From: Vampirovibrionales bacterium | GTDB taxonomy: Bacteria > Cyanobacteriota > Vampirovibrionia > Vampirovibrionales > Vampirovibrionaceae | Length of the DNA: 64,000 bases | Direction of reading: 5' to 3' | NCBI GenBank assembly: GCA_029262635.1 | Contig: JAJCZA010000002.1 | Coordinates: forward strand, 496,001 to 560,000 | Shown here: positions 24,123 through 61,231 of the stretch, one piece after another | Layout: each line of letters starts with the position of its first letter | Position numbering within the stretch: the first letter of the stretch is position 1 | Position numbers and translations under genes: made by a program | The notes under the pieces: model-generated | The model's database searches: none | Told to the model about the DNA's origin: nothing | Seen by the model: only the letters and a program-made list of their open reading frames with translations

Positions 24123-24167
24123 CGGACCCCATCGTTTGTTTGAGTGAACCATAAGGAGCCATCACCG

Positions 24168-26645
24168 ATGCCGCCCATGAAAAATAGACTGATCACGTTG
24201 CTTCTTCTGGCAGGGTTTCTGCTGTGTCTGGGTATATCAGTAGCCCAACCGGCTTCTGATGCGGTTGATTATCTTAATTCGGGCATCAAGCTACAAAATA
24301 ACAAAAATTACACCGGCGCTATTCAGAAATACACTCTTGCCTTAAAAGTAATGGGGCCGAACCATCCCTATAAAGGGGTGGCTTACATGTATTTGGGACA
24401 ATCCTATCTCAGGTTAAAAAAAGGGAATCTTGCTCAACAGCAGTTTAATCTGGCCTTGCCTCTTGTCCGTAAACATCAGGGTGCTAACAGCAAATACGAA
24501 GCTAGGATATATATGAGTCTGGGTAATTTCCACACTAAAAAAGAACAGTACGGTGAAGCGGAAACCGCCTACAAAAAGTCACTGGCTTTGTTTGAAACAC
24601 GGCTTAAGAAGGATCCAGAGGACAAGCAGGCCAGAGAACAACTTGTGAATCTGCATTATAATCTGGGTAATGCTTACGGGAAGCAAGAAAACTATACGCA
24701 GGCTATTCAGGCATTTAACGCGGGAATAGCCCTGCAAAAATCCGTGGGTGAAACTAACACCCATTTAATGGGAGAGTTTTTAAATGGTTTAGGTATTACT
24801 CATCTGAAAAACAACGAAAACGAACGCGGATTAAGCTACCTTAAACAGGCGATGGCTATTTATTTAACGACGGTTGGCCCGGAGGATTCACAGACACGGA
24901 CCCTGAAAAATCTGATTGCCCTTATTGAGACTCAAAACCAGCAGACAACCCCTGTCACAACATCTGGCTCATCACAACAGGGAGCCAATGAGCCAACGGG
25001 CTTGACAAATTCGGCCAGTACTGTTGATCCTAACTCGTTTGCCGGACTCTATCAGGCGGCAAGGAAAGCTTGGGATGAGGATCGATGGGAAGAATCTGAA
25101 GCACTGTTTAAACGGGCCCTTGAGAAATCGAAGGGATTAAATTTAAGTGATTCTTTTCTGGCTTCGGTAAAAAACGCACTGGGTTACACCCTGTATTTCC
25201 AGAAAAAACACACGGAAGCCGAGCCCTACTTGCGTGACAGCTTTGCCGTCTACGAAAAAGAATACCCGCCCGGCGATAAAAACTTAGGCTATGCTCGGTT
25301 GATATTGGGTCAAAACTATTTTGAACAAAAAAAATACGTCGAAGCGGAAGCCTTGCTTCGGCAGAATATTGATAAAATAGGGATTCAAGATGAAAACGCC
25401 CTTTCGCTTTATAAAACCCTGGCATTCTCCCTGTATTATCAAGGGAAGTTTGATGAAGCGCTCCCCTACTTCCATCAGGTGAAATCACTTCTTGTTGAAA
25501 AGCAGGGTGAGGACAGTCTTTCTGCTCGATCGATTCAGTTGACTTTAGATGAACTGGAAAAAGTACGGCGCTCCACCGTGCCCGGACAAGATAATTATCT
25601 GTTTAATTTTATTGGTGAGCTGTCTCGGTGGCGAAACCATCAGAAAGAAGTTGTGGTCTATTTACCTTCAGGAACCGGCCTTTTGGGTTGGTCGGATGAG
25701 TATATTCCGCTAACAAAAGCGGCATTTTTTGAATGGGAAAAAGCCCTGAATCATCGGTTTAAGTTTGTCTACACTCAGAATCCAGTGGATTATGATATTC
25801 AGTTTGTCTGGTCACCAAACGTGATTGATTCCGACGAAGTTTCTCACCGGCTGGGACTTAGCACGACTAAAACCGTGAATTATTTTTTTACGGAAAAAGT
25901 TATTAAAATTGCTCTGGCGGATCAGTCTGGTGTGCGATCGGCCCAGGACGTTTATGCGGTTTTACTTCACGAAATTGGCCATTCGCTGGGGGTAGGCCAT
26001 AGTAATAACCCAGCGGACGTTATGTCTGAATATGCTAATTACAAAAGCGGTACGGGGGAAGAGGTGCACCTGACCCCGCGGGATATCCGGACGGTTCAAG
26101 TGCTTTATCAGCTGGAACCGAAGAATACGAGCCCTAGAAATGTGACGCTGAGCCAATATAGTCATTTCTTAGAAAAATTAGAAGCCCCCCGTAAAGCATT
26201 TAATAAAGGAAAATATAAAAAAGCCTATAAACTGCTTGCCGAAGTTCGTGGTATTTATGCTGATGATCCTTACACCAACTATTTGTACGCTCTGACGGCT
26301 ATGGAACGGAAAAAAAACGTGGAAGCAATTCAGGTGCTGCAACAAACCAAATTTCCGTCTAATGACCATCGTTATTCTTTGAATAAAACCATGGGCTATG
26401 CTTACGTGGAGCTGGGCCACCAATTCCGAAAGAAAAAAAAGCGAGCCATCCAGTTCGAGGGAGGGATGGGTTCGATGGATTATTATGCTGTGGGTGTTAA
26501 TTATTTGAGCAAAGCGCTCAACGATCCTTATCTGGCTAGTAATCAGCGAGAGGCGATTGAACGAAAACTAAAAGAAGGTATTCAACGACGACGTTCTTCA
26601 GCTAATCAGTACTATCATTACCCGGTCTACGTTCGGATGCGCTAA
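24168..26645 (+). CDS. secreted TPR-matrixin metalloprotease
   Basis: 825 residues from the ATG at 24168, with AAGGAG nine bases upstream (an in-frame GTG at 24144 precedes that site). A signal peptide ends near GISVAQP. TPR repeats fill about 30-245 and 295-465 (SGIKLQNNKNYTGAIQKYTL, YKKSLALFETRL). Residues about 480-660 form a matrixin-type zincin: HEIGHSLGVGH (H601, E602, H605, H611) and the Met-turn NPADVMSEY. A third helical region with TPR-like spacing ends the protein. All three zinc His and the catalytic Glu are intact, unlike the homologue at 5219-7006. The stop overlaps the convergent transporter gene by four bases. Confidence 0.88.
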   Translation: MPPMKNRLITLLLLAGFLLCLGISVAQPASDAVDYLNSGIKLQNNKNYTGAIQKYTLALKVMGPNHPYKGVAYMYLGQSYLRLKKGNLAQQQFNLALPLVRKHQGANSKYEARIYMSLGNFHTKKEQYGEAETAYKKSLALFETRLKKDPEDKQAREQLVNLHYNLGNAYGKQENYTQAIQAFNAGIALQKSVGETNTHLMGEFLNGLGITHLKNNENERGLSYLKQAMAIYLTTVGPEDSQTRTLKNLIALIETQNQQTTPVTTSGSSQQGANEPTGLTNSASTVDPNSFAGLYQAARKAWDEDRWEESEALFKRALEKSKGLNLSDSFLASVKNALGYTLYFQKKHTEAEPYLRDSFAVYEKEYPPGDKNLGYARLILGQNYFEQKKYVEAEALLRQNIDKIGIQDENALSLYKTLAFSLYYQGKFDEALPYFHQVKSLLVEKQGEDSLSARSIQLTLDELEKVRRSTVPGQDNYLFNFIGELSRWRNHQKEVVVYLPSGTGLLGWSDEYIPLTKAAFFEWEKALNHRFKFVYTQNPVDYDIQFVWSPNVIDSDEVSHRLGLSTTKTVNYFFTEKVIKIALADQSGVRSAQDVYAVLLHEIGHSLGVGHSNNPADVMSEYANYKSGTGEEVHLTPRDIRTVQVLYQLEPKNTSPRNVTLSQYSHFLEKLEAPRKAFNKGKYKKAYKLLAEVRGIYADDPYTNYLYALTAMERKKNVEAIQVLQQTKFPSNDHRYSLNKTMGYAYVELGHQFRKKKKRAIQFEGGMGSMDYYAVGVNYLSKALNDPYLASNQREAIERKLKEGIQRRRSSANQYYHYPVYVRMR

Positions 26646-29597: not shown

Positions 29598-32500
29598 TTA
29601 TTGGAGTTTTAGGTTGTAACGATTTTCTTGATGGCGTCCGTTGCGGTGTTCGGTAATGAGGCGAATAGTCCATTGGCTGGCGCCTCGCACCGCATCCAGT
29701 GGGATATTCATCAGGACACCGTTTTCTACGGGCTGTTTTAGTACCGCACCAGAGACCGCTTTCCACTGGGTCGGGCTTTCGCCTGCACCCAGCTCGATCC
29801 ATGCTTTTCGGAACTCATTGGCAACGGCCTTGCCTTGGACCTGAAGGTGAATCCCTTTTGGGGTTCGTACGGCTTGCACGCTGTCAATTTCGGCATCAAT
29901 ATAAAACGCCGGATCGGCTTGCAAAGCGGCTTGAGCATCCAGTAATCCGTAGCCCGTGTACTGATCCTTGCCGGGCACATCGATATCCCGTGCGGAGTAA
30001 AGCAACATACGTTTTAACTCTTCCGCCTTCAATTGTGGATTGACCGACAGGAGCAACGAGGCCACGCCAGCAACAAAGGGGGCTGAGAAGGAACTTCCTG
30101 CTGTTCGGTAGTAGGCGGTGTCATCGCCAACATAGGCTTTGCCGGGTTCGTAGTCCGGGTTCTCAAAGAGCAGAAAGTCCGTATTTTTTGCCCGAAGTGA
30201 GAGAATATCTACCCCTGGCGCCGCCAAGTCAATGGCCGGACCCCAGTTGGAGAAATTGACCCGTTCATCCGTTAAGTCCGTGGAAGCGACGGTGATAACA
30301 CCCGGAAGTCCGGCTGGCGAGGTGTTTTTTGTGTGGGTTCCCTCGTTTCCAGAAGCCACCACCACTAGCACATTCTTCTCGATAGCATAGTCCACGGCGG
30401 CTTGTTCGACCTTTGTCAAATACTTTCCGCCGATGCTGACATTAATCACTTTTGCGCCATTATCCACAGCGTAAATAACGCCCTGCGCTAGTTCGATACT
30501 ACCCCCGGCGTTGTCAAAATCCGTGACCTTCACGGCCATAATCCGGGCATGGGGGTTCACCGAAGCGATACCGACCCCGTTATTACCCCAGGCGCCAATA
30601 ATACCTGCGGTCAGAGTGCCGTGTCCGTTATTGTCCTGGATATTCGCTGTGTCGTCGATAAAGTTCCAGCCGTAGTAATCATCGACATATCCGTTTTGGT
30701 CATCATCCAGACCATTATCAGGAATTTCATCCCGGTTAATCCAGAGAGAGCCTCGGAGATCAGGGTGAGAAAGGTCAATCCCCGTGTCCACGACAGCGAC
30801 AATGACTTCTTGGCCGGATTTGGGCCATTTGGAATGATCCGAGAAGCCAATTCGTTTTAGCGCCCATTGATCATCGTAGGTTTGTCCCCAAGAGCCTTTG
30901 CTCTGGAACAAGGGATCGGTGGTCATGGAAGAGTGCTTTAACTCCTTGCCTCGGCGATCGCGATTGGGCTCATATGAAATATTTTCATCCGTGACGCCTT
31001 CATCACAACAACCGGAATCAGTGACCTTCGGACAAGGAGAGGGTTTGTCTGCTTTTTTGTCTTTGCCTTCTCCTTTTTTGGGTGTTTCTGTCGCCGCTTT
31101 GGGTTGGGTGTAGGCGTCTGGTGGAACCGTCACTGTGGCTGGACCTTTATCGGTTCCTTTAATCAGCGGTTTCCACTTAACCTTGGATTTATCGGTGACT
31201 TTAATCCCTTTCTTTTTCAGGTCGTCAATGACCTTATCAATGTCTTTAGCCTTGCCTTCGCCCGTAGGGACAAACACTTTAATTTTTTCCTTCGGCTTGG
31301 CTTTTGGTTTGGGCTTGGGTTTCGTCGTGTCTGCTTTTTTCGGCGGTTCTGTGTAAGCATCCGGCGGTACTGTTACCGTGGCGGGCCCTTTATTCGTCCC
31401 TTTAATCAGCGGTTTCCACTTAACCTTGGATTTATCGGTGACTTTAATCCCTTTCTTTTTCAGGTCGTCGATAACCTTATCAATGTCTTTCCCCTTGCCT
31501 TCGCCTGTAGGGACAAACACTTTAATTTTTTTCTTTTTGGGCTTTGGTGCTGGCTTCGGTGCCGGGGTGGTTTTGGGCTTATCGGCAACGGTTTGGGTGT
31601 GGTTGGGAATGGTGATAATGGAGGGGCCTGCCTTTGTTCCCTTGATCAGCATTTTCCACTTGATGCCTTTGGGATCCACAATGATCCCTTTGTCTTTCAG
31701 CTCCTTGGTGACCGTCGCAATATCGGCTTCTCGACCCTGAGAGTTCGGTACGGCGATTTTAATGGGCTTGGGTTTTACCGTGGTTGAAGGAGGTTTATCT
31801 TTGCCCACCTTGCCTTCGTATTTTTCGTGGCAGGTGCCTTTAACCCGGACGGTATCGCCGTCTTTAATAGGAATACCGCCAACAATTAAATCATCGTCTG
31901 GGTGGTAGACTTGAGGTTCCCGTGTCTGACCCAATGGCTCTCGTGTGGAGCAGTCACCGGACGAGGCATAACGTCCATAAAACGTGTAATCCCCGGAAAA
32001 ATCGGGTCCGCCTTCGACATGAACCAACCCTGAATCACGAGGTTGGGGATCCACAAGGAACCAGTCGCCCCATAGTTGGTTGTTCTGGAAGTTGGAAGCC
32101 GTTTGGACTGACTGCGAAGTTGTGCTACTCCAAGCGCTTGTGTCTCCCGATTCAAACCCATCGGCGAAAATTGGGGACTCTCTAAAACCAATGCCTCGTG
32201 ACCAGCCATCATTCGGGCCGGATGGTAAAACGCCGCCGCCAAAGAATGGGTCATAAGCCAGGGGTTCGTCCAGAATGGGAAAACAAGGCGAACCATCAGA
32301 TAAACCGGTGTTCTCAGAAGGAGGAGATGGAAAATCGACGATAGAATCTTTGGGTGTAATGCTAATCACCACATCTTTTAAAGGTTGACCAGTGATTAGG
32401 TCTGTCAATGGTTTCTTAGCGGTTTCTTGCCACTCTTGATGTTGATCCGAGGGTTGGTCATCGGGCTGTTGTGAGGTGGTGTCTGAAAGGGGTGCGTCGG

Positions 32501-33386: not shown

Positions 33387-33500
33387 TTGCCCGCGTACCT
33401 CTCTCTTCTTTAAAAAAGTGGAAAATAAAAACGAGAATGGAGAGCATTGTATACGAAACACTCTCCATTCTAAATGGTTTTGAAAAAGATCGTTACCGTT

Positions 33501-34694
33501 TTACACGTCGTCGCCAGGAACAACCAGCACGGAGCTTTTCATTGCCCGGCCGCTTTGCGCTCCGTCGCCCGACTGTTTTGCCGCATCTTTCCACAGGGCT
33601 ACTTCGCTTTGGTTGTAGAATTCTGCGGGGATAATGAGCACCGAACCGTTTAGCGGTTCACCAGAGCGCTGGCCTTTTGGACTTAGCGCTTTGCTAACTT
33701 CTTTCCAGCCAACCGAGTCTTCGTTTCTGGAACCGGCTTTCAGCAGTTCGAGCGCTTGTTTCGGAGTGATTTTTAGCATTTTTGTGGGGATAATGGTCAC
33801 GATGCGCTCTGAAGGAATCGCGGTTGGTGTGCCATTTTCCCGTGTTCTCGGAATCCAGATCTGCGCTTTCATATTTTCTTTATTTGCACTGGTTAAGAGT
33901 TTAACCATATTCGAAGGAACAATCTCGCGCAGGTTGCCTTTAAAGATTCCTGTGCTGTCACCGGTTTCTCGGAACACGATGCCACTGGTTGAACCACGGT
34001 AATTATGGGGTACCAGTGTCACTTCTTTGGTATGGCCATTCAACGTTACGTTTACTTTGGGTGCATGAGCCAATGTACTCCGCGCAAAGGCGGCATTTTT
34101 ATCCGGCGCAAGACCAAAAGGTGTCATCATGGATACGCTGACGAAAACCATGAGTACAAGAGCGGAGACAATCATTAAATCACTGCTCATTAAAGTAAAC
34201 CAGCTGACTAACAGGGTTTTTAGTATCGTGGCCATGAAAAGTGCGTTAACAATAGATGCTGGTACGTCGCCTTTTTTCCAATGATAAAAGCTGTGGCCCA
34301 AGCCCAAAAACATGACGCCAAACACGGCACCAAAAATGGAAAGCTGGGTTCCTGGTCGGCTACCCCGCCCGGTGTTTGTTGTTCCGCTACAATTAACGAG
34401 ACAAGAAATTAGTGACCCGTCAATGTCATTTTGTTCTTTTTTTAATGTATTGACTTCTTTTTTTACCGTTTGTTCAATTTGTTGAGCCGCATTATAAAAA
34501 CCATCATAGAGGGTTTCCGTATTCATTGACCGCATCTCATCGGTCGATAAAAGTGCCTGATTTGAGGTCAGTGCAGGTGTCTCAGATGGAACCATTGTTG
34601 AGGATAGTGCGACGGCCTCAATCGGGTAAGCGAATAGCATGAGTGCTAAAAAAGCACACAAAACGGACTTCCAGAGTCCTTTTAAAATCGTCAT
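33501..34694 (-). CDS. membrane protein with two copies of a WxxxAK module
   Basis: 397 residues. Signal peptide-like start (LCAFLALMLFAYPIEAVA), then a polar helical stretch, a Ser/Cys-rich segment (SCLVNCSGTTNTG), and three hydrophobic helices at about 122-200 (SIFGAVFGVMFLGLGHSFY; ILKTLLVSWFTL; VSALVLMVFVSVSM). The C-terminal 190 residues are predicted beta-rich and end in two repeats of one motif: GWKEVSKAL with SGEPL and VLIIP, then LWKDAAK with SGRAM and VLVVP. The same motif occurs in the adjacent subtilase and in the lipoprotein at 59525-61231. No enzyme motif. It is 114 bases upstream of the subtilase start on the same strand and may be co-transcribed. Confidence 0.75.
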   Translation of the reverse strand: MTILKGLWKSVLCAFLALMLFAYPIEAVALSSTMVPSETPALTSNQALLSTDEMRSMNTETLYDGFYNAAQQIEQTVKKEVNTLKKEQNDIDGSLISCLVNCSGTTNTGRGSRPGTQLSIFGAVFGVMFLGLGHSFYHWKKGDVPASIVNALFMATILKTLLVSWFTLMSSDLMIVSALVLMVFVSVSMMTPFGLAPDKNAAFARSTLAHAPKVNVTLNGHTKEVTLVPHNYRGSTSGIVFRETGDSTGIFKGNLREIVPSNMVKLLTSANKENMKAQIWIPRTRENGTPTAIPSERIVTIIPTKMLKITPKQALELLKAGSRNEDSVGWKEVSKALSPKGQRSGEPLNGSVLIIPAEFYNQSEVALWKDAAKQSGDGAQSGRAMKSSVLVVPGDDV

Positions 34695-40867: not shown

Positions 40868-41803
40868 CTAAGGCTGGGCTAATGCCGTTTCCAGAGCTTC
40901 CTGCCGTGCGGCTTCTAACCGGGTTGACGTGGTTTCTGTAAATTGGGGGGCTATGTCCAGCGTGATGCCGGATGTATCAAAATCCAGCCCGGAATTGGTT
41001 GACGGTATTTCAGCCTGCCCAAATCCGTCCACCTTGCCAATTTCAGCAGCCACCTGCTTACTGTACAGAACACCGCCCACCTCATCAATCCCGGTGGTGT
41101 ATTGGTAGCTCAATTGAAAGAAGTTATCCATCACTGAGCCGGGTACCAGATCCGAAGCGTAATCGACTTTAAATTTGGTGAGCAGTTGATTGGATGTATC
41201 CGTAAATTGCCAATGGGCATTGTAGACTTCCTGGTTGGGATCGCCACCTGTATTGGGGTTGGCAGCACAATTGCCCGGATCTGAACAGAGGCTGTTCCAG
41301 GATTCTTCCGCGTTAGCCAAGTCGTGGCCAAACCCTGCCGCGTCTCTCAGCAAGGCGATTAAATCACTGGGCGCACCGTCAGCATCCATCTCATCAGCCA
41401 GCGCTAGCATTTGGTCTGCCAGAATAGAAGTGGCCAGAACGGCTGTATCGTTTCCACCTTGACCACTTTGGGTAACCAGATCAAGGGCCGTCCCGCCGGG
41501 TAAGGTCAGGGAGCCTGAGGTGAGGTTGATGGTGCCGCCATTGGTTTGGAAATCAGTGTAAATGGAACTGCCTGCGTCGGGGGTTGTTGTTGTGGTGGTA
41601 GGCAGGCTTGACGTTTTGTCGTTGGGTTCCAGGATGGAAATTAATTTCTTATAGTCGGATTCTTTTGGACCGGCGAGCATGTTACTTAGACTATTTCCTA
41701 AAAAGCTGACGGACGGAATGGTGACGAGCGTTACCATGGCCAGGATGACCGCATATTCCGTCATGGATCGTCCTTTTTCCTTGTCGTATTTTAATGTTTC
41801 CAA
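40868..41803 (-). CDS. Flp-type prepilin-like protein with a long C-terminal domain
   Basis: 311 residues from a TTG at 41803, supported by GGAGG nine bases upstream. The N-terminus KEKGRSMTEYAVILAMVTLV is a type IVb/Flp prepilin: cleavage after G11, then Glu at +5 and Tyr at +6, then a hydrophobic helix. Ordinary Flp pilins are about 50-80 residues; here about 260 residues follow, starting with a Thr-rich linker (LPTTTTTTPDAG), then Ala/Asp-rich helical and beta stretches with two Cys (SLCSDPGNCAAN). So it is a pseudopilin or minor pilin, or a pilin-anchored surface protein. No assembly genes (tad) lie in view. Confidence 0.8.
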   Translation of the reverse strand: METLKYDKEKGRSMTEYAVILAMVTLVTIPSVSFLGNSLSNMLAGPKESDYKKLISILEPNDKTSSLPTTTTTTPDAGSSIYTDFQTNGGTINLTSGSLTLPGGTALDLVTQSGQGGNDTAVLATSILADQMLALADEMDADGAPSDLIALLRDAAGFGHDLANAEESWNSLCSDPGNCAANPNTGGDPNQEVYNAHWQFTDTSNQLLTKFKVDYASDLVPGSVMDNFFQLSYQYTTGIDEVGGVLYSKQVAAEIGKVDGFGQAEIPSTNSGLDFDTSGITLDIAPQFTETTSTRLEAARQEALETALAQP

Positions 41804-59524: not shown

Positions 59525-61231
59525 GTGCAAATTGCGGCGATGTTACGAAAAGGGATAACCATGGGACTGATGGGCATTCTACTCAGTGGATGTCTTCTTT
59601 ACAACACCCCGTTGTGGGCCGATCCGCCTAATGCCAATAATGCGTCACTACCTCGTTCGATTACTCACCCTGAAAGTAATGAAACTGCCGATAACAGTGA
59701 GGAGGCCGTTCAACAGCGAGTCCGTTACTGGATGGAGAAGGAAGATCAGCTAAAATACCGGAAGCGGATACTGGACAGCCTGCTTCTCCTGCTTAATGAA
59801 GCGATTAATCGGTGTGATCGTGAAGCTTATAATAAAGTTAGAGAGGCCATTTCAGCCATCATTCGTCAGGCCGAAGGTCTTGTGAATGACGCGGTACCAG
59901 AGACCCGGTCCGTCTTATTTGACTTAGGCCAATTGGAGTTGGGTGGTAGTTCGTTTGTGGTGCGCTATAAACAAACGCTGGTGCGCTGGCTGAATCGCAT
60001 CTATGAAGCGTCTGCCAATCGACCTTCCTTTCCGAAGGAGTGCTGTCCTCGTGAAACACCCATTACCGCAAACGGGCAAGAGTTTATCAGTCAGGGAGGC
60101 AATAGCACGCTTCCGGGACTTGCCCGAGGTGTTTGGGTCACCCGAACGCTTTTTGGCAGACGAAGTCCCCGTGATCATTACTATTACGATCTGTTATTTG
60201 ACGATTGCAATCGGCTTCGGGGTACCCTGCTAGAGGTGGAAGAAAAATTGCCAAAATTAAGTGAGTATCTGGATGCTGCTGTTAGTCTGGATTTAGAGAA
60301 CATTAAAAACATGGACCTTCAGGAAGCCGACCCGTTCCGGTGGGCCGATAATACGCTGTCCATACAAGATGATATGAAAGAGCTTCAAAGCGTTCATCGT
60401 CAACTGGTTGCCCGTATTGCGCGATTATGCCCAGAGGACACGGCACAAACATCTAATACAACGCCAGCTACCGATGGGGAAGAGACGCAAAACCCGACTT
60501 CGACACTCGAGAATAATTCAACCGGGGCTAAGAATAAAACAACCTCGGAGAGTACCGGCACCAAGGGGACACCGAAAAAAATAGTGCCGAAAGTACCATC
60601 GAAAGCCATAGAAACTTTACCTGGAAAGGCTTCCTATCAGTTCAAACCCGAGGACTTGAAGACCTGGCAAACCGTTGCTAAAAAAGTACCCAAAGATGCT
60701 CTGACCGGTCAGCCTATTGAGAGTACGGTTGTGGTTGTTCCCAAAGAAGCGGCTACAAAATCGAAAAAACCTGTTAAAAATGATCGTCCAGAAAATCCAG
60801 AGGGTGCCTCTGAACCTCTCACGAAGGGAACACCGTTGATTTATGTTAAAGACGGTCAGCCACTACCTCAGCTTCATGTGGGAGATCAAATTGTGGTGAA
60901 TAGTGATTGTTATGAGAAAAAAATCTATACCATTGGGAAGGATGCGCCGCCGGAATTTATGGCTCTTCAGCCGAGTCCGCTAGAATATGTGATTAAAACC
61001 TGTGATCCTAAGACTCTGGATCGCATTATCAGTGATTTGGCCCGACAGCACATTATCGTAAATCGTAGCGCCATTACGGTGACACCTATTGGGGCGTTTG
61101 ATAAGGTCCAGATCCCGGACTATACTTATCGGAAAAAGCCGTGTCCAAAAACCTGTATTCCCAATGATCCAAGTATTCAACCGGGCGACGAAGGTTGGTA
61201 TGAAGGCAACTGCAATCGTCATGGCGAGTAA
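59525..61231 (+). CDS. lipoprotein sharing modules with the subtilase
   Basis: 568 residues from the GTG at 59525, with AGGA eight bases upstream; an earlier GTG (59510) has no site before it. The signal peptide has a lipobox, ILLSGC, with C23 as lipidation site. Residues about 55-290 are helical with a Cys pair (PKECCPRE) and YYYDLLFDDCNRLRGTLLEV; about 300-360 is a Thr/Asn-rich linker. Then three modules follow in the order of the subtilase at 29598-33386: WQTVAKK...TGQPI (378-408), VNSDCYEKKIYTIGKDAPP (448-478), and a beta/alpha unit ending VQIPDYTY (487-535). No protease domain. It may display or dock the same partner at the membrane. Confidence 0.82.
   Translation: MQIAAMLRKGITMGLMGILLSGCLLYNTPLWADPPNANNASLPRSITHPESNETADNSEEAVQQRVRYWMEKEDQLKYRKRILDSLLLLLNEAINRCDREAYNKVREAISAIIRQAEGLVNDAVPETRSVLFDLGQLELGGSSFVVRYKQTLVRWLNRIYEASANRPSFPKECCPRETPITANGQEFISQGGNSTLPGLARGVWVTRTLFGRRSPRDHYYYDLLFDDCNRLRGTLLEVEEKLPKLSEYLDAAVSLDLENIKNMDLQEADPFRWADNTLSIQDDMKELQSVHRQLVARIARLCPEDTAQTSNTTPATDGEETQNPTSTLENNSTGAKNKTTSESTGTKGTPKKIVPKVPSKAIETLPGKASYQFKPEDLKTWQTVAKKVPKDALTGQPIESTVVVVPKEAATKSKKPVKNDRPENPEGASEPLTKGTPLIYVKDGQPLPQLHVGDQIVVNSDCYEKKIYTIGKDAPPEFMALQPSPLEYVIKTCDPKTLDRIISDLARQHIIVNRSAITVTPIGAFDKVQIPDYTYRKKPCPKTCIPNDPSIQPGDEGWYEGNCNRHGE

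Follow-up and report, generated by a model that had tools for sequence, protein, structure and literature searches.

The locus

The window analysed here is a stretch of 64,000 nucleotides from a Vampirovibrionales bacterium, with a G+C content of 46.5%, compared to 51.4% for the V. chlorellavorus genome (PMC4451040). Its minus strand carries the neighbouring genes of a 397-aa membrane protein (P0002, 33501..34694, from the list of open reading frames and hydropathy) and of a large exported subtilase (P0003, 29598..33386, from Pfam and a profile of the C-domain described below), and its plus strand that of a 573-aa exported protein (P0001, 59510..61231). All three contain a unit of about 30 aa that we call the W-module.

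P0002 consists of a signal sequence (residues about 10-30), an N-terminal domain of ~85 aa and a C-terminal tail of ~200 aa, with predicted membrane helices at about 118-137, 146-166 and 173-191; its last 70 residues hold both of its W-modules. We found no credible match for this protein in Pfam, NCBIfam or PHROGs, and no homologue among 57 relatives. The AlphaFold2 model of the single protein was unusable (pLDDT 41), with three helices noted. Positive charges are located in loop 1 (HWKKGD) and after segment 3, not in loop 2. Given the positive-inside rule and the three helices that follow the signal sequence, simple tools predict that the tail with both W-modules is cytoplasmic, opposite to the modules of the other carriers.

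Between the genes of P0002 and the subtilase lies a terminator-like hairpin of 15 pairs with a T-rich tail (33434..33471, minus strand). Because this hairpin covers the listed GTG start codon at 33461, ATG 33386 is the more likely start of P0003. It also bears on an argument of the earlier note, which had counted the adjacency of both genes in favour of an envelope complex: the genes are indeed neighbours, but since the hairpin intervenes we rejected an operon, co-transcription is not to be assumed, and adjacency becomes weaker evidence for one complex.

The subtilase has an N-terminal export signal and is arranged, in this order, as an N-terminal region, a W-module, a C-domain shared with other carriers, two tandem half-copies of that domain, and the protease near the C-terminus. 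Residues 883-1172 match Peptidase_S8 (184.2 bits against a cut-off of 21.8; 4e-54). The best NCBIfam score was obtained for mycosin TIGR03921 (200.9 bits), so that the protease part resembles mycosin-like subtilases in being a Peptidase_S8 but differs in scoring under the cut-off of that family (278.75). Mycosins are components of type VII secretion. A literature search for Vampirovibrio with subtilisin found no publication.

P0001 bears its W-module followed by a C-domain at its C-terminus, and ends in GWYEGNCNRHGE. Its signal is weak by hydropathy; read by eye, LWA-DP would fit signal peptidase I, while LLSGC would fit a lipobox, and the protein is possibly a lipoprotein. Two further genes of the window are worth recording. 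The first (24144-26645, plus strand) encodes a TPR-like protein that has a signal sequence and two TPR-like blocks; read by eye, a zinc site of the matrixin type (HEIGHSLGVGHS) lies between the blocks. The product of the second (40868-41803, minus strand) has 311 aa; its N-terminus resembles Flp/Fap pilins (E 0.003, below Pfam's cut-off), and ~250 aa make up an additional C-terminal part.

Five copies of one module

The earlier note had described two copies of the module at the C-terminus of P0002 and four copies in three proteins of the window. Both copies of P0002 are present: copy 1 (33627..33707, minus strand) reads WKEVSKALSPKGQRSGEPLNGSVLIIP (GWKEVSKALSPKGQRSGEPLNGSVLIIP) and contains W330, and copy 2 (33516..33593, minus strand) reads WKDAAKQSGDGAQSGRAMKSSVLVVP (LWKDAAKQSGDGAQSGRAMKSSVLVVP) and contains W368. 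They are 38 residues apart, and between copy 2 and the stop codon there is GDDV alone. The subtilase copy (32352..32432, minus strand) reads WQETAKKPLTDLITGQPLKDVVISITP, and that of P0001 (60665..60742, plus strand) WQTVAKKVPKDALTGQPIESTVVVVP. A six-frame search of the window with a regular expression matched exactly these four. The four were also recovered by the profile that was built from them.

The pattern was absent from all 300 shuffles of the ORFs of the window and from all 20,000 shuffles of the four carriers (the fourth being P0004, see below). Significance was assessed by shuffling the ORFs of the window and by a profile search of the genome, in place of the shuffled proteomes that the earlier note had proposed. 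Since the regular expression had been fitted to the four copies, we added other tests that make no use of it, namely BLASTP, pairwise shuffle Z-scores and leave-one-out profiles.

We searched six frames of the genome (2.99 Mb in 31 contigs, 96% complete) with a profile built from the four copies. Apart from the four training copies this profile retrieved a single new one, with E=7.4e-8, in a 528-aa protein, P0004, encoded on the same contig ~240 kb away; the best match after that had an E of 1.3 over 15 residues. This genome therefore has five copies of the W-module, distributed over four proteins that are exported or reside in the membrane. The earlier note had named clustering in signal-peptide proteins as support for its idea, and the sole further carrier does have a hydrophobic signal sequence at its N-terminus; a background of matches in cytoplasmic proteins, which would have spoken against the idea, was not observed in the 2.99-Mb genome. 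The genome encodes two other subtilases, one of them with RTX-like repeats, and neither is matched by the profiles of the W-module and the C-domain, hence the module is not simply a part of subtilases. A 403-aa ORF near P0004 (L041:11226-12437, minus strand) consists mostly of (GNA)n tripeptide repeats, ahead of which stand QGFGAP repeats, and frames overlapping it are open as well. The ORF upstream of P0002 (35132-35605) showed no similarity to an ORF near P0004.

The tests that are independent of the pattern gave a consistent picture. Pairwise Z-scores among the five copies ranged from 2.9 to 14.4, and exceeded 5.9 in 9/10 comparisons. P0001 and P0002 matched each other in BLASTP with E=2e-6; the alignment spans the region upstream of the W-module too, but homology there was not significant (P=0.06) and we did not retain it. 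When each protein was left out of the profile in turn, it always came out on top among the non-training sequences, with whole-protein E-values of 7e-10, 9e-8, 4e-4 and 0.07 (the weakest being the subtilase copy), values that are somewhat optimistic because Z was set to 8500, lower than the number of six-frame ORFs of the whole genome. A tryptophan, a lysine, a glycine and a proline are invariant across the copies. We also considered further degenerate copies in the four carriers, including the WKPLIKGT stretches of the subtilase, and found no support for them.

One could still suspect a chance resemblance between short hydrophobic motifs, given the shortness of the module and the E of only 0.07 that the subtilase copy reaches once left out. 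The absence of matches in shuffles, the independent genome-wide match (7e-8) and a second domain shared by three of the carriers leave almost no room for this explanation. The claim that chance is an unlikely cause of the repeats was therefore borne out, and it is practically certain that the copies are homologous.

A second shared domain and the search for relatives

In P0001, P0003 and P0004 the W-module is followed, always in the same order, by a C-domain of ~95 aa. The earlier note had seen the module as a stand-alone motif. This is true of P0002, where we looked for a C-domain and found no match, the modules standing alone and in tandem; in the other three carriers it is instead the first part of a larger unit. 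The C-domain is located at 60851..61135 (plus strand, found by profile) in P0001 and at 31587..31886 (minus strand, a member of the profile) in P0003, where it reads GDTVRVKGTCHEKYEGKVGKDKPPS...IIVDPKGIKWKMLIKGT...; over the latter interval the two proteins match with E=1e-4 (BLASTP). P0001 and P0004 are the closest pair (37% identity over 192 C-terminal residues, E=8e-19). Their C-domains conserve GD, C-x-E, G-x-D and P, and both proteins end in GWYE(x4)RHGE.

In the subtilase, the latter half of the C-domain occurs twice more, at 31365..31535 (E 1.6e-5) and 31119..31289 (E 5.6e-5), both on the minus strand and outside the profile. These 57-aa repeats (31119-31535) are identical at 96.6% of amino acids and 90% of nucleotides, and at only 72% of third codon positions, from which they look to be under selection at the protein level.

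Between W-module and C-domain, the linker can be as short as about 10 residues or as long as about 155, the longest being that of the subtilase (31886-32352, minus strand). This ~155-aa insert carries FADGFESGDTSAWS, a motif known from many secreted proteins of bacteria. Shuffle tests for an N-terminal domain common to P0001, P0003 and P0004 were negative. Since their N-terminal bodies have no detectable relationship, we consider the unit of W-module and C-domain to be modular.

AlphaFold2, run on a three-sequence alignment of the unit, modelled the W-module as a helix (6-16) and a strand (30-35) with a pLDDT of about 70-83, and the C-domain as a compact, beta-rich body (pLDDT mostly 63-85) joined to it by a disordered linker. 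The sequence of the module has a matching shape, i.e.: a predicted helix, a TG turn, and a strand rich in V and I that ends in a proline. For the latter half of the C-domain the prediction is strand-helix-strand-strand(-strand), an ACT/ferredoxin-like beta-alpha-beta-beta order.

These models speak to a sober alternative, in which the W-module is the N-terminal structural portion of a single ordinary domain outside the cytoplasm, its residues are kept for folding, and the tail of P0002 is a duplicated fragment. The fixed order of both parts in three proteins would be expected in that case, and conserved W, G and P residues commonly mark positions that determine a fold. However, the linker is predicted to be disordered and its length is not constant (about 10 to about 155 residues), and P0002 has the module twice without a C-domain match. 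We regard this alternative as unlikely, though it deserves serious attention.

Neither part belongs to a family that we could name. The unit had no credible sequence match in Pfam, PHROGs or the PDB, no catalytic family matched it, and Foldseek searches of the PDB and of viral models gave no match at E<=0.001. Among the weak Foldseek matches in the PDB many are ACT domains, in line with the latter half of the C-domain, but chains containing ACT domains appear only at E about 0.3 and above and there is no match to Pfam ACT. A transthyretin-like domain appears among the weak matches of the unit as well, and we take the turn and strand of the W-module (D-x-x-TG-x-PL-x(3)-V-x-V) to resemble the first hairpin of carboxypeptidase regulatory-like or transthyretin-like domains. 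In the model the W-module has a helix and one strand. No Pfam match to a domain of this kind was found for the five copies or the three units up to E=10. Moreover, the copies of P0002 cannot each hold a transthyretin-like fold of ~80 residues, since they are 38 residues apart. The C-terminal unit that P0001 and P0004 share, on exported bodies that are otherwise different, also recalls sorting domains such as PEP-CTERM, LPXTG and type IX CTD. Yet the unit is internal in the subtilase and has no family match, and a hydrophobic C-terminal segment, as follows the motif in PEP-CTERM and LPXTG proteins, is found in neither P0001 nor P0004. The analysis hence defines two new orphan domains, the W-module and the C-domain, without a Pfam match.

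Outside this genome, neither domain had a credible match in 146 relatives; the genomes searched include others of the same family, none shown to be of the same genus. Marginal matches in four genomes (G044, G091, G053 and G037; E 0.003-0.009) cover about 35-110 residues. The combined profile of both domains found no credible match in 386 genomes of the phylum. No credible relative was found in viral contigs, or in a genome-contig database searched with two narrow peptide patterns only, and the W-module was not found in a 'Cyanobacteria bacterium' MAG, the nearest named record when compared by ferredoxin-NADP reductase (71% identity). Together with other genes, this similarity points to a probably non-photosynthetic lineage of Melainabacteria/Vampirovibrionia. 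As far as can be seen, the W-module is restricted to the genus or species.

Possible roles of the module

A modular and seemingly non-catalytic unit that sits on different exported bodies and keeps W, K, G and P invariant is usually read as an interaction module. Our tentative reading follows this use: the unit is possibly a lineage-restricted, non-catalytic interaction module, with a putative role in binding. The W-module may have spread within the genome through duplication among exported proteins, in which it would act as a non-catalytic interaction element. In P0001, P0003 and P0004 the W-module and C-domain together would have been attached to unrelated N-terminal bodies and to a protease, probably tethering them to a single shared extracytoplasmic partner, or else to one another, and in P0002 the tandem pair of W-modules would form the end of the tail by itself. 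A binding function, the identity of any partner and a target common to all copies are what we infer from this arrangement. The predicted cytoplasmic location of the P0002 copies speaks against the last of these, as it does not fit one extracytoplasmic partner for all five. Should one of the weaker segments of P0002 fail to cross the membrane, its tail would be outside and this objection to common docking would fall.

The same topology weighs on the role proposed in the earlier note, a docking motif of an envelope complex. The homology of the copies and the signal sequences of the carriers uphold it, the predicted cytoplasmic side of the P0002 copies does not, and in this general form we find it plausible. 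A single complex of subtilase, membrane protein and lipoprotein is quite improbable. Signal sequences or membrane segments are present in all carriers and two of these are encoded by adjacent genes, as such a complex would suggest, but the modules of P0002 are predicted on the other side of the membrane, the terminator-like hairpin lies between the adjacent genes, and the other two carriers are encoded ~25 kb and ~240 kb away.

The presence of a protease among the carriers raises another possibility, that the neighbouring subtilase recognises or processes proteins at the W-module and would cut or hold those that bear it. The gene of the subtilase adjoins that of P0002, the carrier of two copies, while P0001 and P0004 are exported, and some copies have pairs of lysines near the module. 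In contrast, the five copies share neither a conserved dibasic site nor anything else that would be an obvious place for cleavage, and those of P0002 are predicted to be cytoplasmic; we therefore hold this very improbable. Returning to the interaction module, it could be extended to a private interaction code, by which one partner that binds the W-module would gather the exported proteins, including the subtilase. The pair in P0002 would then be a competing or handing-over site, possibly cytoplasmic, that holds precursors before export. We offer this extension as a long shot.

Exported bacterial proteins often contain lineage-restricted modules, and the general interest of the finding is accordingly modest. 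For this organism, it links three proteins that are otherwise without annotation to a large exported subtilase. If the W-module is a docking element, it would give a handle on the arrangement of exported proteins in a poorly known and mostly uncultured lineage.
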